Source: Candidatus Nanopelagicus abundans (GTDB taxonomy: Bacteria > Actinomycetota > Actinomycetes > Nanopelagicales > Nanopelagicaceae). Taken from it: a DNA stretch of 64,000 bases. Below, piece after piece: positions 1,718 to 56,817 of the stretch; within the stretch, counting starts at the first letter, position 1; the number at the start of each line of letters is the position of its first letter. The stretch is taken from assembly GCF_002288305.1 (NCBI RefSeq), contig NZ_CP016779.1, positions 1,054,001 through 1,118,000 of the forward strand. Reading direction: 5' to 3'. Below the pieces are notes generated by a model. The model saw nothing but the letters and a program-made list of their open reading frames with translations. It was not told the origin of the DNA and ran no database searches. Both the position numbers and the translations under genes were made by a program.

Positions 1718-2524
1718 ATGAGGGCTAAAAAAGTATCACTTTATTCACTTACCGGCTTTAGTAAAAACAATCTCCAATTACTAAGACTTCTAATCCAACA
1801 GGAGTTAACTCTTCGTTATAAGCGAAGTGTGATTGGTATTGGCTGGACCCTACTTAATCCAATGCTAACAAGCTTTGTATTATGGATAGTTTTTTCATTT
1901 TTATTTGTTGGTAAATTAGAGGTAGGTCAGCAATTTGCCCCCTACCTTATGGCTGGTATTTTGCTAAATACCTTCTTTAGCCAGGGCTTACTTCAAGCTG
2001 CTAACTCCATAGCTGCAAATGGTGGGGTATTAACTAAGGTGTCTGTGCCTCCAAAGATATTTGCCTTTGCTGCAGCCCTTGCTGCATTTATTAACTTTCT
2101 AATTGGCTTAATTCCACTTGCAGTAGTTGTGTATATCTCAGGCCAAACCCTCTCACTTACCTTTCCTCTGGTTTTAGTCATTGGCCTATTTATGGCCTTC
2201 TTCACCGCCGGTATTGGACTCACACTTTCAGTAATTTTTATCAGATTCGAAGATGCTAAAAATATTGTAAATGTGCTGCTTCTAATCCTGATCTACCTCA
2301 CCCCAATCTTTTATCCAATTGGAATATTAAATGAGTCAATGCAGCAGATCGTCACCCTAAATCCATTAACAAGTTTCCTAGATGCCTTTAGATGGGCATT
2401 CTCCGATAATGCCACCGCCACCTGGCGTGATTTTCTCTATCTCGCTTTAATAAGTATTACTACCTTCGCACTAGGTAATCTGTTTTTTAAAAAGCGCTGG
2501 TCTAAGACGATTGCGATGTTGTAA
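1718..2524 (+). CDS. ABC-2 type polysaccharide export permease (Wzm/TagG-like)
   Basis: The 268-residue polytopic membrane protein has about six hydrophobic spans. Its early motif RYKRSVIGIGWTLLNPML (about residues 33-50) is typical of the ABC-2 permeases that export O-antigen or teichoic-acid-like polymers. Such permeases pair with a Wzt/TagH ATPase, and one follows immediately with a one-base overlap (TAATG). It is the first gene of a plus-strand operon that continues with the ATPase and a glycosyltransferase. The neighbouring sugar-nucleotide genes on the opposite strand support export of an envelope glycan. Confidence 0.88.
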   Translation: MRAKKVSLYSLTGFSKNNLQLLRLLIQQELTLRYKRSVIGIGWTLLNPMLTSFVLWIVFSFLFVGKLEVGQQFAPYLMAGILLNTFFSQGLLQAANSIAANGGVLTKVSVPPKIFAFAAALAAFINFLIGLIPLAVVVYISGQTLSLTFPLVLVIGLFMAFFTAGIGLTLSVIFIRFEDAKNIVNVLLLILIYLTPIFYPIGILNESMQQIVTLNPLTSFLDAFRWAFSDNATATWRDFLYLALISITTFALGNLFFKKRWSKTIAML

Positions 2525-3255
2525 TGAATGTGATTGAGGCTAAAAATATCAGCTTTGCTTACCGAGTATTAAATAAACAACACTCATCCCTAAAAACCTT
2601 ATTTAGAGATTTTCTCCACGGCAAGGTATCTATTGAGGATTATGTAGCAATTAAAAATATTACCTTTGAGATAAAAAAGGGTGAGACAGTTGCAATAATT
2701 GGCAAAAATGGTGCCGGTAAATCCACCCTACTTAAAATATTAGCTAGGGTGATAAACCCAACTACAGGTAGTATTTTAATTACAGGTCAAGTAGCACCAA
2801 TGATTGAGTTAGGTGCTGGCTTTAACTCTGAATTAACTGGTAAAGAAAATATTCTTTTTTACTCAGCCCTATTAGATCGGGATATAGATAAGGTCAAGCC
2901 AAGGATAAATGAGATCATTAATTGGGCAGGGGTTGCTGATCACTTAGATTATCAACTGCGTACCTACTCAACTGGCATGGTTGCCCGGCTTGCTTTTTCA
3001 GTAGCCACTGATGAAATCCCAGATATCTTACTAATTGATGAGGTATTAAGTGTTGGTGATGGTGAATTTGCTATCAAATCAAGGAAGCGTTTACTTGAAA
3101 TTATCACCTCTGGCTGCACAGTAATCATGGTCTCCCATGATCTAGCAACTGTTGCAGAGCTCGCACAAAAGGTTATCTGGATTGAAAAAGGCCAGATTGA
3201 AATGGTAGGACAACCAGCTGAGGTGATAGCGGCGTATCAAGTCAGTGGTGCTTAA
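2524..3255 (+). CDS. ABC transporter ATP-binding protein for polysaccharide export (Wzt/TagH-like)
   Basis: The 243-residue ATPase has a Walker A motif GKNGAGKST (about residues 60-68), a Q-loop region PMIELGAGFN, a signature-like YSTGMVARLAF, and a Walker B LLIDEVLSVGD followed by a switch His in MVSHDL. These place it with Wzt/TagH/KpsT exporters. It ends right after the nucleotide-binding domain, so it lacks the C-terminal carbohydrate-binding domain found in many Wzt proteins. Substrate recognition therefore probably lies with the permease. The first codon overlaps the permease stop. Confidence 0.9.
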   Translation: MNVIEAKNISFAYRVLNKQHSSLKTLFRDFLHGKVSIEDYVAIKNITFEIKKGETVAIIGKNGAGKSTLLKILARVINPTTGSILITGQVAPMIELGAGFNSELTGKENILFYSALLDRDIDKVKPRINEIINWAGVADHLDYQLRTYSTGMVARLAFSVATDEIPDILLIDEVLSVGDGEFAIKSRKRLLEIITSGCTVIMVSHDLATVAELAQKVIWIEKGQIEMVGQPAEVIAAYQVSGA

Positions 3256-11406: not shown

Positions 11407-11551
11407 TTTGTTTTGCCCCTTGTTAACCGGTTTTGTCTTACAGAGTCAGCCGTCGCTGCCTCTATTCACCTCTACGCCTTAGGTGGGTGTTTGTAGTGAA
11501 GATAGGACAAATCGGACACTGTCCTTGATTAGTACCTTAACTATACCAAAG

Positions 11552-11624
11552 TGGGCCCTGTCGGGATCGAACCGACGACCCACAGATTAAAAGTCTGTTG
11601 CTCTACCGACTGAGCTAAAGGCCC
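11552..11624 (-). tRNA. tRNA-Lys (anticodon TTT)
   Basis: The minus strand folds as a full cloverleaf. The acceptor GGGCCTT pairs with AGGGCCC, including one G-U. The D arm is GCTC/GAGC, the anticodon stem ACAGA/TCTGT holds loop CTTTTAA (anticodon TTT), and the T arm is GTCGG/CCGAC with TTCGATC. The discriminator is A and no CCA is encoded. It forms the left border of the AT-rich glycan island. Confidence 0.95.
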
Positions 11625-11746: not shown

Positions 11747-13126
11747 TTACCTAAATGAAATTAATTTTGACTTCAGTAACCTGTAAGGTCTAAAAATTTT
11801 CCAGATAGTAGATTTTTGAATATGATCCCGCTCCACTAGTGCATGATCCCGCTCGGCCACTGCATGATCCCGCTCGGCCACTGCATGATCCCGCTCGGCC
11901 ACTGCATGATCCCGCTCGGCCACTGCATGATCCCGCTCCACTAGTGCATGATCCCGCTCGGCCACTGCATGATCCCGCTCCACTAGTGCATGATCCCGCT
12001 CTACTAGTGCATGATCCCGCTCTACTAGTGCATGATCCCGCTCTACTAGTGCATGATCCCGCTCCACTAGTGCATGATCCCGCTCGGCCATAGCAATATC
12101 GCGCTGAACAATCAAAATGTCGTACTCGGGATTAAATTTAAAAATAAATTTGTAAAAATTTACTAAACTTGAAATGTCAATGTTCTTTAACGGATAGACC
12201 TCAGAGAAGGTATTGCTTAAAATTAATTCATTTAAAACTTTTACCGTTGGTCCGATTGTATTTCGAAATGCAAAGTCAACTCTTGCAAAAGGTTTCCCAG
12301 AATCTAAATTTTTTTCTAATATTTTTGTTGAGTGGAATTCCCAAAAATTATCCAACCCACTCTCACGATTTAACTCGAACAACATTTTCTCTTGCCAACC
12401 AACTACTTCGGGATATTCAGATAACATTAAATTTTCCCCATGTTCAACACGCAATAAAAGTCGTAATTTTGTCAAAAATGGCACGTGCGCTATCTGAAAA
12501 AATTTACTGTCGATAGATATCTCTATATCTTCACGGTATCCCTCCAAATAATGTGCTCCAGAAGCAAGAACATAAGGTGCACTTGCACGAAAAATTATTT
12601 TAGAAGGGAAAGTAAGATCAAAAAAATTAGCTTCATTATTTTTTATTTTCTCTTTCAAAATACTGATATTTGGATATGAAATTGATTGTGGCTCAGAAAC
12701 ATAAATGATATCCAAGAATTCTTCGTAGTGCTTAAGCTCAAAATTGTAATTAGAAATCCAATTTCTTATTTCATATCGCACAGATTGGATTTCAGATGGA
12801 ACCCCTTCTAGGAAATCACAAATACTAAAATCTTCACTCTGAACCATAAATTCATCTGCATCAAAGGCATAGATCCAATCATAGTTCCGATTCTGCATAA
12901 GAAATCTAATGGCATGCACGGCAATTGCTTGATGAAATTTAAATTCTTCCTGATAAAAGATATGTATTCTGTTAGGCCAAAGTTTTTGAAGCAGAATTAC
13001 TTCTTCTCTAAAATCTTGATTGCTATCGTGTACAAGTATACAAACCTCGGTGCAGCCATTCATCAATGCATGACTAACGGATATTGAAATCAAAGTACTC
13101 TCATTGCGGGCTAGAACGATCCCCAA
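11747..13126 (-). CDS. GT2-like glycosyltransferase with C-terminal heptad-repeat coiled coil
   Basis: The N-terminal part, starting GIVLARNES, has the GT-A metal-binding stretch FDADEFMV (about residues 91-98) and resembles the Glyco_tranf_2_4 group of GT2-like enzymes. Residues of about 345-435 are thirteen tandem copies of the heptad ERDHALV/ERDHAVA, predicted to be helical coiled coil. The end, KSTIWKIFRPYRLLKS, resembles the cap found after coiled coils in other bacterial glycosyltransferases. The frame has no ATG at its start: TTG at 13124-13126 is the first usual start codon, but the AGGGAG site sits five bases before an ATT at 13136-13138 that would give MQKILGIVLARNES. The gene is AT-rich apart from the repeat. 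Confidence 0.82.
   Translation of the reverse strand: MGIVLARNESTLISISVSHALMNGCTEVCILVHDSNQDFREEVILLQKLWPNRIHIFYQEEFKFHQAIAVHAIRFLMQNRNYDWIYAFDADEFMVQSEDFSICDFLEGVPSEIQSVRYEIRNWISNYNFELKHYEEFLDIIYVSEPQSISYPNISILKEKIKNNEANFFDLTFPSKIIFRASAPYVLASGAHYLEGYREDIEISIDSKFFQIAHVPFLTKLRLLLRVEHGENLMLSEYPEVVGWQEKMLFELNRESGLDNFWEFHSTKILEKNLDSGKPFARVDFAFRNTIGPTVKVLNELILSNTFSEVYPLKNIDISSLVNFYKFIFKFNPEYDILIVQRDIAMAERDHALVERDHALVERDHALVERDHALVERDHALVERDHAVAERDHALVERDHAVAERDHAVAERDHAVAERDHAVAERDHALVERDHIQKSTIWKIFRPYRLLKSKLISFR
11824..12096 (-). repeat. Thirteen-copy 21-bp tandem repeat inside the glycosyltransferase gene
   Basis: Thirteen units of exactly 21 bases run from 11824 to 12096. Each keeps a constant ATGATCCCGCT core (plus strand), and a variable six-base part comes in three forms: CGGCCA, CCACTA and CTACTA. 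They encode Ala-Val-Ala or Ala-Leu-Val joined to Glu-Arg-Asp-His. Units are almost identical at DNA level and more GC-rich than the gene around them, pointing to recent expansion by slippage or recombination. Confidence 0.97.
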
Positions 13127-13351
13127 TATTTTTTGAATTTCGTCTCCCTTCGCTATCCATCATCGAGACCACGTTTTGCCATCATTACCGTTGATAGATA
13201 AGTAAATCAGAGGTGCCTGGAAGTATTCAACCGGACCTCTAGCCACTTTAAATGGGGAAGCTAGGTCAGTCAAACTATAAATTCAATATTAATGAGTTTA
13301 AATCGTCAATTTTGGTAAAAAGCACCCCTTTTCATAGGGTTAGATTTACCC

Positions 13352-13999
13352 ATGCACTTAGACCATGTCTCATACGTAACTTCCCATGATCAACTAGCCG
13401 ACACCGTTCAACGTCTTGGCGCGCGGCTTGGCAGCACATTTGTTGATGGCGGAATCCACCCACGTTTTGGCACACGTAACTTCACACTTCCATTACAAAA
13501 TGGTCACTACCTATAAGTTGTCTGCCCACTTGATCATCCTTCTTCTGATTCAACTCCTTTTGGTAAAGCTGTCTCACAGCGTGCTGCAGAAGGTGGCGGA
13601 TGGCTTACTTGGGTTGTTGCTGTTGATGATGTTTCAAAGATTGAAACGCGTTTAGGTCGTGCAGCAGTTGATGGTCACCGCACAAAGCCAGATGGAAAAG
13701 ATTTAGCGTGGAAGCAAATAGGTGTTCTTGGAACTCTAGAAGATAAGCAACTCCCTTTCTTTATTGAATGGCTATCACTTGATCATCCATCAACAGATGG
13801 AAAGGCAATTGCAAAGATTGTTAAGGTTGAAATTTCTGGCGATGAATCACATATTGAAGAATGGCTTAGTTCAGAACTACGCGCAGCTATCGGCTCAGAT
13901 CTTGAAGTGGAGTGGGTTGCTGAGTCTGCAAATGATGGAGATTCGGTAATTGTTGCGGTTCATTTGATGACACAAAGTGGTGTTGTAAGATTAGATTAA
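13352..13999 (+). pseudogene. VOC/glyoxalase-like protein gene with one in-frame stop
   Basis: A 215-codon frame starts at ATG 13352 (MHLDHVSYVTS) and ends at TAA 13997-13999, broken only by a TAA at 13514-13516. The sequence reads NGHYL, stop, VVCPLDHPSSDSTPFG. Glu (GAA) fits the family at that spot, so one G-to-T change explains it. The whole frame keeps good codon usage on both sides of the stop. It looks like the Glyoxalase-like 3 type of VOC protein, with an early LDHV and a later FFIEW. The codon use is of core type, unlike the AT-rich flanking island genes. A TAGATT -10-like box lies five bases before the ATG. Recent decay, a sequencing error or readthrough are all possible. Confidence 0.75.
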
Positions 14000-20649: not shown

Positions 20650-23600
20650 GTGCTAGCAAAAGCTAAAAAGATTTACACTAGATTGCCATTGGTGATTCGG
20701 AAAAAAACTGATGGATTTGTTTACAAAACGTATAAAAAATGGTTAAAAGAAGCAGAAAAAATATCAACAACCCATTCACTGAAAGAAATACATTTTTCAA
20801 GTAGCCCCTGGATCCCATACTATAAATTTGTTGCCGAACACAATGGCCCAAATCTAACAATTTTGCTGCCATCTTTACGTTCCGGATCGTTCTCTGCCGG
20901 TCCAATGATTGCCCTGCAAATAGCCGCAAAAATTGCGACGAACGGATTTCGTGTACGAGTCATGGCTATAGATGGTGCTCAAGAAAAATACAATATTCCC
21001 GAAGATGAAATCTCAAAGCTACTCAAAGACACATTAGAAATCAAAGATTTGCCTACGTCGCTCGAGTTTGAAGTTCTTAATACAGAATTGGTTGTTTCAA
21101 AAGGTGAGAAATTCATGGCAACTGCATGGTGGACATTTGAAATAGCCAAAGGCGCTGCCAGTTTTATGTCGCCGGAGGGAATTCCTTTTTATTTGATCCA
21201 AGATTTTGAACCCTTGCTGCATTCCTCATCCGATGAGATGGTGTTAGCCAGAAACACTTATGATCAAAACATGATCCCCATTGTGGCATCGCCAATTCTA
21301 GCGGAATATTACCTTGAAAATAAAATTGGAGTCGTTGCAGAAAAAATATCTAAAGATAACGAATCATTCATAATTCCACTACCACTTCTTAAAAATACTT
21401 TATATAGACAAAATGATGAACTACCTCTAAAACTTAAAGAAATGATGATAAAACCAAAAACTCTCCTCTTTTACGCTCGCCCAACAAAGGCACAAAGAAA
21501 CCTATTCCATATTGGAGTTAAAGCAATCCAACTTGCACTCGAGTGGAAAATTTTAGATCCAGAACTTTGGAATTTTATTGCCGTAGGGGAAAATATACAT
21601 GAAGTTGAACTTTCAGAAAATACCTTCTTGAAATCAGCGCCATGGTTGAGTTATGCCGAATATATTTCCTTAATTAGAAAATCGGATGTTTATATGGCTT
21701 TGATGAATTCGCCGCATACAAGCTTTCCAGTAATCGAGGCCATGCAGCTCGACGTGCCTTCAATAACAACAACATTCGCAAACAAAACTAAAACGAGATT
21801 AGCAGAGTACTCAAAATATATTTTTGCATCAGCACCAGAATCAGCTGCAATCGCAAAAAATATTGGGAAAGCATTAGTGAAAAAAATTGAGGAAAATGGA
21901 GGAATCAGCGCCAATAAAGATTTTGAAGACATGAATGTGAGTTTGGAGAACCTATCCCTATGGATAAAACAGTTTCTATGCAATGAACAACCCCAATTAG
22001 AATTCAATGGAGAGTTTTCATGTACGTGTCTACACACAAATACGGGTACAAAAAAAATCAACGTCCCAACCATAGACGTAGGTATTTCAGTTTACAATAT
22101 TAAGAATGAATACTTAGTTGAATTACTTCAATCATTAAAAAATGCATTACAGTATTTTTCAACAAACATAAACATATTGATCCTTAATCATGGATCAACA
22201 ATCTATAGTAATAATGAACTCCAGGATCTAATCCATCAGTATCTACCAGAATTTCGTTACTTACAGACTGCCTCAAATAATGGCATCGCGGCAGGTATGG
22301 CAATATTGTTATCTGAAGCGAAATCTGAATATTTCTTACCAATTGATGCTGATGACTTAGTGGGGCGAGATATCTTCGCTGTTCTTTCGAGTCACATTCA
22401 CGCTAATTCAGAGATAGATTTTTGGTACTCAAGTGAATATCTGCTAGCAAACAAAAACATTTTTCCAGCCACGCGAATGGACTTCGATGAGGTTCTACTT
22501 TCGGAAATGTGTTTCACAACCCATGTAATTTGTTTTAAAACCAAAATAGCTAAACAATTGAACGTATATGAAAACGCACCAAATGGTTCACATGATTGGT
22601 TTACTGCCGTGTGTTTCAATCAAAATAAAAATAAATTCCAATATCTAAACCATGTTTTATACACATGGAGATTGCACCCAGAAAGCACCTCGGAAAATTG
22701 GCTAAGCAAACCCTACGTGCTAGAAAGTCAGGAGCAGGTTTTACGGAAATTTGTATCGAATAGCAATAAAGAATTTAGCGTCATTGGTCATCCAAATTTT
22801 CAAGGTGGACCAAATAGACGAATTTTATTAACTAAGTCAGAAAATAAATTCATAAAATTAAAGTTCAAAATTACAGGCTACAATAAGATTGTCAAATACT
22901 ACCAAAGTAACTTTGGCCAGGAAAATCATGAATTTCAGAATAACACTATCTATTGGTTTACCGATTCCACAACTGACCTAGACACAGAAATGCAATTAGA
23001 GATGGATACCATTTTAGAAATATGGCCAAACTCAGTGGTAACCAGCAGTTCAGTATTGACAAATGAAAATGAATTTCTTCCGATCAAACACAATACTAGT
23101 TTTTCGGGTATGAATTCAGCTCATGAATCTATCAGTCTTCTATGTCGGCAAAGCACACAAATTATCAATCCCTTTAACTTTGCGATTAAGGGAGAAACAC
23201 TAAATCAAATTGGCGCCACGCCGGAACTATCGCTAGAGGAGTTAATCAGTTTAATATTGATAAAGGAGCTGAAGCTTATCTACTCACCAAACTTTAAAGC
23301 TGATACACAACAAAAGGATCTATCTGAAATATATTTAGTAAATGACATTTCCAATAATCTGGCTGGTCGTACAGAAGTTTTCTTAAATCATAAGAATGAG
23401 GATAAAGAAGAAGTATGTTTACAAAAAAACCCCGTATCTGAAACAATCAAAAATTTCGGTGGCATAAACATAATTACAACAGTTAAAAGCACCTCAAATC
23501 TGGATTATGTTTTAGATTTGTACGAAAACCTGAAAACAATTCTATGTGATGATATTCGATGGATGCTAGTAGTTCACGGCGAGAATGAAGAAGCTGAACG

Positions 23601-24684
23601 TTTAAATACATTAAAGAATGATTCGAATGTTGATTTGATTATCGTGAAATTAGATCTGGAATTAAACGAAGCAATTAAAGTCGCATTGGAACATGCAGAG
23701 TTAGAGTGGATATTTCCCATTGATTACGATGATCTTTTACTTTATCCTTTTGTCGAAGAGTTTATCTCTAAAGTTAGGGAGGGTAATGCCGATATTTATG
23801 TGGCAAACGAAGTAGTAGGTAAAACAATAGAAGAATCTAAATATTTCAAAAGGAATCCACCGAATAGGCTTGCGATTAAATTATTCAGTGTCTTTTTTCA
23901 CCCGATAATAATTAGAAGACTACAAGCAATACAGGTAATAAATAAAAAATCGAATTACATTTTTGATTGGCAACTTCTGACATCTTTAACTGAGAATCAA
24001 ACCTTAAGCTTCTTTGATTGTCCAGTTTATTTTTGGCGAGAGCATGAGGCATCTCAAACTAACAATTCTCAAGGTTCTAGGTACTCTAAAGTGGCGGTTC
24101 AAGAAGAACTTATATCGCGAAAATTAGATAATCCAAGCTATAAAAACCATGAAATCGTGTTGAAAAATGGCGATTATCAATTAAGCCAAATTGGAAGTCT
24201 ATTTCCAAAATGTTGCCTTCAAATTCAATCAATAGGTAATGAAGTAGATGACGCAAAAACAATGAACGAATTTAAGCAGAGATACCCCTTTTCGCATGTT
24301 GTTAGAAGGTTACACCAGTCTTATCAATTTTTGAAATGTGATTGTGACGCTGAATTCATATTCAGTACCCCCTCTCGTTCTTATCCAATGAAGGAGTTCG
24401 ATATAAACAAACTATTCTCATTTTCGTTGACCGGAAATCACCCAATTGTCGGACAATTAGTCAATAATGAAACAGGAAAACCCACAATTAGAATTTTAAA
24501 CCAATATGGAATACACAGAAATAAACACTTCCAACCGCAGTTGGGTGATCCAGACTTTAACGCATACTTTCACTTTCCCTCTGCATTAATCCAAGATGGT
24601 TCTCCGATGTTGGGCAAGAATGGAACTAATATTTTGGATCGATTGGGAGTTCATAGTGAGAATCTAAATTGTGAAAAAAAATAA
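20650..24684 (+). CDS. Giant three-domain glycosyltransferase (GT4-like + GT2 + GT2)
   Basis: The 1344-residue protein starts at a GTG with GACAGGGG upstream. Residues of about 50-430 form a GT-B domain like WsaF/GT4 rhamnosyltransferases, with LLPSLRSGSFSAGP, FLIQDFEPLL-type QDFEP, LLFYARPTKAQRN, and HTSFPVIEAMQLDVPSI. Residues of about 472-760 form a GT2 domain (DVGISVYN, metal motif PIDADDLVG near 565). Residues of about 937-1170 form a second GT2 domain (INIITTVKS, PIDYDDLLLY near 1023). The last 170 residues match nothing I recognise. No membrane span is visible, so it is probably a cytosolic, membrane-associated polymerising or multi-step enzyme. An RgpF-like protein overlaps its end. 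Confidence 0.85.
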   Translation: MLAKAKKIYTRLPLVIRKKTDGFVYKTYKKWLKEAEKISTTHSLKEIHFSSSPWIPYYKFVAEHNGPNLTILLPSLRSGSFSAGPMIALQIAAKIATNGFRVRVMAIDGAQEKYNIPEDEISKLLKDTLEIKDLPTSLEFEVLNTELVVSKGEKFMATAWWTFEIAKGAASFMSPEGIPFYLIQDFEPLLHSSSDEMVLARNTYDQNMIPIVASPILAEYYLENKIGVVAEKISKDNESFIIPLPLLKNTLYRQNDELPLKLKEMMIKPKTLLFYARPTKAQRNLFHIGVKAIQLALEWKILDPELWNFIAVGENIHEVELSENTFLKSAPWLSYAEYISLIRKSDVYMALMNSPHTSFPVIEAMQLDVPSITTTFANKTKTRLAEYSKYIFASAPESAAIAKNIGKALVKKIEENGGISANKDFEDMNVSLENLSLWIKQFLCNEQPQLEFNGEFSCTCLHTNTGTKKINVPTIDVGISVYNIKNEYLVELLQSLKNALQYFSTNINILILNHGSTIYSNNELQDLIHQYLPEFRYLQTASNNGIAAGMAILLSEAKSEYFLPIDADDLVGRDIFAVLSSHIHANSEIDFWYSSEYLLANKNIFPATRMDFDEVLLSEMCFTTHVICFKTKIAKQLNVYENAPNGSHDWFTAVCFNQNKNKFQYLNHVLYTWRLHPESTSENWLSKPYVLESQEQVLRKFVSNSNKEFSVIGHPNFQGGPNRRILLTKSENKFIKLKFKITGYNKIVKYYQSNFGQENHEFQNNTIYWFTDSTTDLDTEMQLEMDTILEIWPNSVVTSSSVLTNENEFLPIKHNTSFSGMNSAHESISLLCRQSTQIINPFNFAIKGETLNQIGATPELSLEELISLILIKELKLIYSPNFKADTQQKDLSEIYLVNDISNNLAGRTEVFLNHKNEDKEEVCLQKNPVSETIKNFGGINIITTVKSTSNLDYVLDLYENLKTILCDDIRWMLVVHGENEEAERLNTLKNDSNVDLIIVKLDLELNEAIKVALEHAELEWIFPIDYDDLLLYPFVEEFISKVREGNADIYVANEVVGKTIEESKYFKRNPPNRLAIKLFSVFFHPIIIRRLQAIQVINKKSNYIFDWQLLTSLTENQTLSFFDCPVYFWREHEASQTNNSQGSRYSKVAVQEELISRKLDNPSYKNHEIVLKNGDYQLSQIGSLFPKCCLQIQSIGNEVDDAKTMNEFKQRYPFSHVVRRLHQSYQFLKCDCDAEFIFSTPSRSYPMKEFDINKLFSFSLTGNHPIVGQLVNNETGKPTIRILNQYGIHRNKHFQPQLGDPDFNAYFHFPSALIQDGSPMLGKNGTNILDRLGVHSENLNCEKK

Positions 24685-55566: not shown

Positions 55567-56817
55567 ATGAAGTCTCGAGTAACTCTACTTGTTTTCATAA
55601 TTTTAGTTGCTTGTATTTCAGGAAATTCTTTCACAACTGCAAGTGAGACTTCATGGCAGAAGCCTATTTTAAAGTCATTTACATTCACGCCAACTGAAAT
55701 TGAACTCTCTTCTGAAAATACCGAGGTAGAAATTTTACTGACAGTTACACACCCAAGTGGTATTTCAAATCAAAGCATTGATGTTTATTTGGAAAACTCC
55801 ACTTATGGTGCGAATTTCATTTACAGCACAAAGTTATTTAGAACTGAATCACCTATCAATTCAAGTTTAACTATTGTAAATTTCAAAGGATCACTTAAAT
55901 TAGATCCGACTATTTTTCCAGGCGTTTGGATATTCTCATCTGACTCTGTTACGGCAAACCCGATTCTAGATTCACCAAACTTTGTACCAAAGTCTTCTAC
56001 CTTTACGCCACCGCCGTTTAGAGATTTTGTGGGTGCCGAGGCAGGATTACTCATTAGACGCCTCGGTAATCTTTCATTTGATTTTCAGACATTTGTGGGA
56101 CCTTCACATCCCGCAAACAGTTACTTTGAAGATGGAAAGCCGACTATTTTTCCAATGATGAGGCCGATATGGAGAGTTAAAGAGTCATACGATCCGAAAG
56201 ATTTTTTTCAGCTACGCACTAATCGCACTTCACTTCAGATTACCTCCTTAACCCCATTAACTTGCTCAGTCAATTCATCTATTTTGAACTTTATTTCGAC
56301 TGGAGATTGTCAATTTAAAGTGTTTACGCAAAAAACAACTGATTTCGTTGCAAAAGAGCTTTTTTTAAATGTAGAAATACTTCCTGAGCGAAACAAAGTC
56401 AATTTAAATCTCCCCACAATTCCAACTCAACTGGTAACAGAATTCCCAAAAACTATTTCCCGCTCGGTAATTACATTAGACGGTGCAGAGGTATCTCCAG
56501 TATCAGATACTCCTACAGTCTGTTCGGCGTTTGGAAATGTACTGACAATGTATTTAACTGGAAATTGTGTACTTTCATATTCAACTGTTGCGACTGAGTC
56601 TAGATTAGCTTCAGGTATTATTAAACAAGCGTTTATAGTCCTTCAAGAAGGCGTGGTGGAACCTCGCCCATCTCCTACCGCATCTCCTACCGCATTTCCT
56701 ACCGCATCTCCCAAGTCACCCACTAAAAATCGAATTATTTGCGCTAAAGGTAAAACTAGTAAAAAAGTAAGTGGTGATAATCCAAAGTGCCCTAAGGGCT
56801 ATAAGTTAAAAAAGTAA
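55567..56817 (+). CDS. Secreted cell-surface protein with Pro/Thr linker and C-terminal Cys-Lys module
   Basis: The 416-residue protein has a signal peptide (residues 1-27: KSRVTLLVFIILVACISG) after AAGGGGGAG. The mature part seems all-beta (Ig-like stretches with paired Cys, for example TCSVNSS...GDCQF and PTVCSAFGN...GNCVL). A 12-base repeat gives SPTASPTAFPTASP at about 371-384. The end, ICAKGKTSKKVSGD then NPKCPKGYKLKK, is a two-Cys basic module also seen in outline in the protein at 38542. It is probably displayed on the wall. Function unknown. Confidence 0.75.
   Translation: MKSRVTLLVFIILVACISGNSFTTASETSWQKPILKSFTFTPTEIELSSENTEVEILLTVTHPSGISNQSIDVYLENSTYGANFIYSTKLFRTESPINSSLTIVNFKGSLKLDPTIFPGVWIFSSDSVTANPILDSPNFVPKSSTFTPPPFRDFVGAEAGLLIRRLGNLSFDFQTFVGPSHPANSYFEDGKPTIFPMMRPIWRVKESYDPKDFFQLRTNRTSLQITSLTPLTCSVNSSILNFISTGDCQFKVFTQKTTDFVAKELFLNVEILPERNKVNLNLPTIPTQLVTEFPKTISRSVITLDGAEVSPVSDTPTVCSAFGNVLTMYLTGNCVLSYSTVATESRLASGIIKQAFIVLQEGVVEPRPSPTASPTAFPTASPKSPTKNRIICAKGKTSKKVSGDNPKCPKGYKLKK
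56669..56712 (+). repeat. Short 12-bp tandem repeat encoding a Ser-Pro-Thr-Ala linker
   Basis: CATCTCCTACCG is repeated, with small changes, between about 56669 and 56712 (three and a half copies). It encodes SPTASPTAFPTASP, a flexible wall-spanning linker before the C-terminal basic module. Confidence 0.8.

Follow-up and report, generated by a model that had tools for sequence, protein, structure and literature searches.

The window, by which we mean the whole stretch of 64,000 nucleotides that was analysed, comes from the genome of Candidatus Nanopelagicus abundans, a single contig of 1,161,863 bases. It contains a glycosyltransferase gene with a repeat tail, located beside a tRNA gene at one edge of an island of surface-sugar genes. 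The features of the locus are the following:

11551-11624, minus strand: tRNA-Lys, edge of the variable site (ARAGORN)
11625-34719, no strand: surface-sugar gene island, from tRNA-Lys to a YrdC-like gene (gene order in six genus genomes)
11747-13126, minus strand: gene for a glycosyltransferase of 459 aa with a repeat tail; it starts with TTG at 13126, and the open frame reaches 13159
11750-11812, minus strand: basic cap STIWKIFRPYRLLKSKLISFR with a net charge of +6 and the conserved pattern S-x-x-W-[KR]...R (alignment of ten proteins belonging to six family genomes)
11813-11833, minus strand: worn last unit ERDHIQK, adjoining the cap; its first 12 bases equal those of the array units
11834-12085, minus strand: array of 12 complete 21-bp units coding ERDHALV/ERDHAVA (TRF, frame reading, AlphaFold)
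12086-12106, minus strand: worn edge unit QRDIAMA, sharing 15 of 21 bases with unit C and 12 of 21 with unit A
12133-13126, minus strand: catalytic part, putatively of GT-A type, with a DADEF (D-x-D) motif; D-x-D is kept in 6 of 6 aligned homologues

The identity of the enzyme as a glycosyltransferase, proposed in the first-pass annotation, is supported by a match to PF13704 (Glyco_tranf_2_4) at residues 7-98, with 33.4 bits against a cut-off of 27.5 and an E value of 7e-8. This match spans positions 1-88 of the 98 in the profile, and no other glycosyltransferase model matches the protein. The D-x-D motif, which is typical of GT-A enzymes, reads DADEF or DGDEF in the aligned homologues. Two other profile matches were rejected as compositional: PF06217 (GAGA_bind), a plant family with a C-terminal DNA-binding part, which scores 40.8 bits, above its cut-off, with its best stretch (positions 33-84 of 284) on the heptads, and NF047368. 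The catalytic part was found in one of 25 genomes of the genus (N. abundans itself, G000), in 3 of 296 genomes of the family (G000, G087 and G088) and in 3 of 396 genomes of the phylum (G000, G366 and G484). None of the other 24 genus genomes searched, most of them incomplete, has the repeat-tail gene. The tail is missing in four of five catalytic-domain homologues (L056, L057, L058 and L086) and is thus an add-on, dispensable for that activity; the fifth (L087, in G366) ends in a short helix-like stretch followed by the cap SSVTWRMLDAF. No related DNA or proteins were detected in the viral contigs, plasmids or phages searched. A literature search found no work on heptad repeats in Nanopelagicales, and the accessible part of PMC10202952 holds nothing on a repeat-tail glycosyltransferase gene.

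The tail is encoded by a near-identical 21-bp tandem repeat, as first described. TRF reports a period of 21 and 12.6 copies with 92% match at 11822-12086; its score of 376 compares with 79 for the second-ranking array of the window. Over 252 bases, the self-identity of the sequence shifted by 21 is 0.91, a value that elsewhere in the window reaches no more than 0.38 at this shift, and 0.42 when all shifts between 6 and 59 are considered. The extent given initially (11824-12096) is correct to within about 10 bases, but the count of thirteen heptads has to be amended to 12 full units plus a partial one. The complete in-frame units (11834-12085) comprise seven ERDHALV and five ERDHAVA, encoded by only three DNA variants in the order A B B B A C A C C C C A. 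Unit A is one base apart from B and four from C, bases 1-15 are invariant in all 12 units, and the worn ERDHIQK unit matches unit A at 14 of 21 bases. The claims of a GC-rich repeat in an AT-rich gene (59.9% GC in the array vs 32.9% in the rest of the gene) and of a unit that preserves the reading frame hold as well. Each of the residues E, R, D, H and L has a single synonymous codon across all 12 units; for arginine this is CGG, which accounts for 7-8% of the Arg codons nearby. Such uniformity is the mark of recent DNA amplification rather than of codon choice, and the interspersed unit variants mean that the array is not brand-new. Worn edges around a uniform middle would be the usual picture of homogenisation by slippage or unequal crossing over. 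The repeat DNA has one copy in the genome; among 60 relatives searched, G046 alone gave a match, 34 bp long and at chance level. As a repeat of 21 bp would lead one to expect, another frame of the minus strand stays open across 11822-12098, and one frame of the plus strand almost does. Another short tandem repeat of the window, a 12-bp unit CATCTCCTACCG in 3.6 copies at 56669-56711, lies in a Pro/Ser/Thr-rich stretch of the ORF at 55567-56817.

The first-pass annotation described the tail as a coiled coil; its helical nature is supported, and the coil itself is marginal. AlphaFold, run on the single sequence, predicts one continuous helix over residues 339-445, with pLDDT of about 85-92 over the array, mostly below 50 in the catalytic domain and 41-63 in the cap. 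In a COILS-like scoring (GCN4 control, P 1.0), the array reaches P 0.55 at best; its heptads scored singly give 0.04 for ERDHALV and 0.54 for ERDHAVA. The register places His at a and Val or Ala at d. By the same score, 3731 of the 5040 orderings of the seven heptad letters surpass the actual one, and the tail found in genome G124 rates as a clear coil, with P 1.00. A PDB sequence search returned weak matches only, mostly designed helical bundles and SYNZIP, at E 0.05 or worse. These predictions support a long helix and do not establish an ordinary coiled coil; with a marginal score, there is no support for the oligomer on which a ruler may depend.

The heptads sit between the PF13704 domain and the basic cap STIWKIFRPYRLL. 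The putatively amphipathic cap has an Eisenberg moment of 0.42. In an alignment of ten caps from six of the seven genomes with tails (G179 being left out), S, W, [KR] and a later R are present in all ten, and the net charge ranges from +4 to +6. In seven of these ten tails, a heptad of the form [EQ][RK][DNQE]xxxx has its end precisely at the serine of the cap, which indicates that the arrays grow in fixed phase to the cap. A tail profile (A2), built from five tails and searched against the 296 family genomes, matched 30 of them at E <= 0.05 and recovered tails outside its building set in G183 (E 3e-9), G124 (2e-8), G157 (1e-7) and G026 (1e-4). Eleven loci among these matches were read in frame, the remaining weak ones (E about 0.014-0.045) being left out of the count. 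One of the eleven, in G179, is a true tail and another (L090) is a G183 tail already counted. The matches in G115, G108, G110 and G102 were discarded as one conserved non-tail protein, which we take to be PrmC-like, and the five other loci are short or doubtful and were not counted. Hand curation by frame gives true tails in seven of the 296 genomes (G000, G087, G183, G124, G157, G026 and G179).

The enzymes that bear the cap fall in several classes: PF13704 glycosyltransferase, Methyltransf_24, sulfotransferase-like and TOD1/MUCI70-like. G183 has six tail ends with an S-x-x-W-[KR] cap (L118, L119 and L120), belonging to at least two enzyme classes, five of them in long open frames and one in a frame of 67 aa. 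Pfam finds Methyltransf_24 in three of these proteins, one just under the cut-off, and TOD1/MUCI70 in another. The proteins of G157, G026 and G179 are presumably sulfotransferase-like, by motif or general look; Pfam gives no informative match for those of G157 and G026, that of G179 not being in the scan. No NCBIfam model matches the tail in the six proteins scanned. A resemblance of the cap to the ends of other coiled-coil glycosyltransferases had been noticed at the outset; what the searches bear out is that the cap recurs on other, unrelated surface-sugar enzymes in these seven genomes. Our principal finding is this tail module common to unrelated enzymes.

Arrays of near-identical 21-bp units, with different heptads, lie directly upstream of the cap in four of the seven tail genomes, with 4.5 to 12.6 copies. 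Besides the array of N. abundans, these are ERDIAIS in G157 (4.6 copies, 100%), QRDELTQ in G124 (6.0 copies, 98%) and ERDGAIA in G087 (4.5 copies, 100%). The G124 array is at a contig edge that cuts off the protein start and the catalytic domain, and the G087 protein has no Pfam match. The tails of G183 and G026 have no comparable amplification, although one G183 tail has 1.9 copies of a 21-bp unit. A cap-independent pattern of four xRD heptads in a row found six loci in 5 of 171 family genomes, four of which are the arrays with caps already described. The other two are capless. One, in G089, runs antisense to the end of a frame that looks like a helicase; the other (L128), at about 31446 on contig 9 of G124, consists of three near-identical 21-bp repeats that belong to no long reading frame. 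The backwards control of the pattern matched 4 of 171 genomes, so the genome count alone proves nothing; the evidence that counts in this search is that each of the four loci whose coding frame reads as heptads has the cap. An earlier, narrower pattern (ERDxxxx) had matched 2 of 296 genomes. Different heptads have thus, as judged from the DNA of these arrays, been amplified separately in four species.

Beyond the family, a scan of the genome collection for ERDHAxxERDHA found three loci, in two species of Siccirubricoccus and in Ruegeria. The Siccirubricoccus loci combine a methyltransferase-like N-terminus, heptads and a SSSWRLTRP-type cap; that of Ruegeria has heptads without such a cap. The tail search in 396 phylum genomes matched 21, mostly other charged repeats, and a few of these matches (L065, L074, L075 and L076) are sugar-enzyme-like with heptads and a basic end.

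The neighbourhood of the repeat gene is devoted to surface-glycan synthesis, as exemplified by WsaF_N/C plus GT2 domains. The island occupies about 23 kb in the window; its borders, tRNA-Lys and the YrdC-like gene, are 47 bp apart in G013. In G005, whose ortholog of the flanking sigma-like gene is the closest (91%), a different gene lies no more than about 110 bp from tRNA-Lys. The gene with the tail in G157 is located between a WecA-like gene and a run of tRNA-Phe/Asp/Glu, YrdC and tRNA-Lys, so that two unrelated tailed enzymes occupy the same variable region in two genera. The whole tRNA-Lys/YrdC/tRNA-Glu-Asp-Phe/WecA-like neighbourhood (11551-35985; L050, L051, L053, L055 and L121) is a hot spot with different sugar genes in different species. 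A 1,344-aa protein at 20650-24684 (plus strand) joins WsaF_N/WsaF_C to a GT2 domain, which suggests a rhamnan-type polymer. Next to the glycosyltransferase, a gene at 13319-13999 (plus strand), which we assume to be glyoxalase/VOC-like, is split by an in-frame stop at about 13514 and looks broken. Outside the island, at 1718-3255, are genes for an ABC-2 permease (ABC2_membrane) and an ABC ATPase (ABC_tran). A MutS_V domain was not found in the N. abundans genome and is present in 11 of 14 control genomes; its lack would favour the survival of slipped repeats.

The anatomy of the tail, that is, array, helix and cap module, seems to us very well founded. Our best explanation goes further, to a length-adjustable helical spacer between the catalytic domain and the membrane or a partner, similar to the one of FutA/FutB, and we give this whole chain of steps a probability of about one half. 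The repeat would encode a rigid alpha-helical spacer within a transferable C-terminal module of heptads plus the basic, tryptophan-bearing cap, which may tether the enzyme to a partner or to the surface of the membrane. An alpha helix rises 1.5 angstroms per residue and has 3.6 residues per turn. Helix length would set the reach of the catalytic domain at about 10.5 angstroms per 21-bp unit, or about 13 nm for 12 units, and each unit of seven codons would turn the helix, by arithmetic, only about 20 degrees. Gain or loss of a unit keeps the frame and nearly the same helical face, so that reach could change stepwise with the enzyme unbroken. In populations, whole units might be gained or lost by slippage or unequal crossing over; the one N. 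abundans genome examined gives a single copy number, 12 complete units. The reach might then influence at what lengths or positions the enzyme modifies glycans, in the manner of the FutA/FutB heptads. The original reading of the locus is in this way partly supported, and what appears to strengthen it is the shared module with its separate 21-bp amplifications, not proof of a coil.

The strongest competitor, which we consider rather unlikely, is neutral slippage, in which a permissive linker helix gathers harmless, frame-keeping 21-bp duplications and length has no function. Any exposed helix tolerates whole-codon units, and the missing MutS_V domain, the tailless catalytic domains of four of five homologues and a copy number known from one N. 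abundans genome all fit this idea. Strictly neutral linkers would nevertheless be expected to vary in place and phase, and here four species amplified separately, each directly upstream of a conserved cap that was itself kept. A further rival is that the repeat acts as DNA, serving for recombination or integration where the island begins, and it takes its appeal from the distance of only about 200 bp between the array and tRNA-Lys, which borders the variable site. It is hardly credible, given that the repeat is single-copy in the genome, that the island extends from the 5' end of the tRNA gene, and that the frame is kept and the other arrays are built of different DNA units.

Two further possibilities assign the heptads a function known from other enzymes. 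A coiled-coil terminator or ruler of WbdD type, measuring chain length in an ABC-transporter-dependent pathway, would agree with the ABC genes at 1718-3255, with the clear coil score of the G124 tail and with the description, in the accessible text of PMC11231755, of a coil-carrying enzyme as a marker of that assembly strategy. We regard it as improbable in view of the marginal coil score of the array with His at position a, of a profile scan that finds no methyltransferase-kinase or known terminator domain in the protein, and of ABC genes that are outside the island. Still less probable is a regulatory tail like that of NeuO, in which heptads bind the acceptor and activity rises in proportion to their number, with no ruler or coil. 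The available portion of PMC3046976 describes VNTR-coded heptads with linear activity with number, disordered in the crystal, and this precedent means that repeated heptads need not be a coil. The heptads of NeuO, however, are basic and N-terminal, and the present ones, with E, R and D, carry a net negative charge, stand at the C-terminus and are predicted to be helical.

Should the spacer reading be right, a wider picture can be drawn, which we offer tentatively and with the odds against it. One tail module, heptad helix plus S-x-x-W-[KR] cap, would be shared by numerous surface-glycan enzymes whose folds are unrelated, both within the actinobacteria and outside them. Recurrent in-frame 21-bp amplification of the last heptads of the module would retune the reach of each enzyme from the membrane, so that free-living, streamlined bacteria could alter their surface glycans rapidly with no on/off switch. 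Heptad-number rulers in glycosyltransferases have been described from a host-adapted pathogen. The same DNA logic would then operate in free-living freshwater actinobacteria, on several unrelated enzymes with one cap, as a general route to quick surface-glycan change, possibly under phage pressure, and it would yield a sequence signature to search for.

The closest known systems are those of Helicobacter pylori. The catalytic domain of FutA and FutB is a fucosyltransferase of family GT10; the protein described here has PF13704 instead, and thus is not a member of the FutA/FutB family. In the parts of the sources available, the heptads of FutA/FutB are a ruler for the O-antigen chains that get fucosylated (PMC2583950), the H. 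pylori FucT has 2-10 heptads followed by two amphipathic helices (PMC4202792), and a galactosyltransferase gained one 21-bp repeat, from 8 to 9, between the strains of spouses (PMC3858298). As far as these sources go, FutA/FutB (DDLRVNY/DDLRINY) and the beta-1,4-galactosyltransferase (DELTGKY) share with our enzyme C-terminal heptads coded by 21 bp and followed by a tail. The catalytic family, the heptad and the cap are all different, and the cap plus array recurs here on unrelated enzyme classes. A ruler of the FutA/FutB kind would be expected to show a repeat number that varies and correlates with glycan size; here the number is known from one genome of the species. WbdD and other coiled-coil terminators, according to the available parts of PMC5082667 and PMC11231755, have the same succession of catalytic domain, long helix and C-terminal part, which binds the membrane or a partner in those enzymes and may do so here. 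WbdD is, however, a trimeric coiled coil with a methyltransferase-kinase, and in the repeat-tail glycosyltransferase the profile scan matched no kinase or methyltransferase model, the coil score is marginal and the units are near-identical DNA repeats. The polysialate O-acetyltransferase NeuO is likewise a surface-glycan enzyme whose heptad number varies via a tandem repeat (PMC3046976, in part). It differs, from what that text describes, in its 7-nt repeat with on/off phase variation, in the N-terminal position of its basic, disordered heptads and in being an acetyltransferase. The protein belongs to none of the three families; it is a variant of the heptad-repeat glycan enzymes with another catalytic family and, by analogy, it may well work like FutA/FutB.
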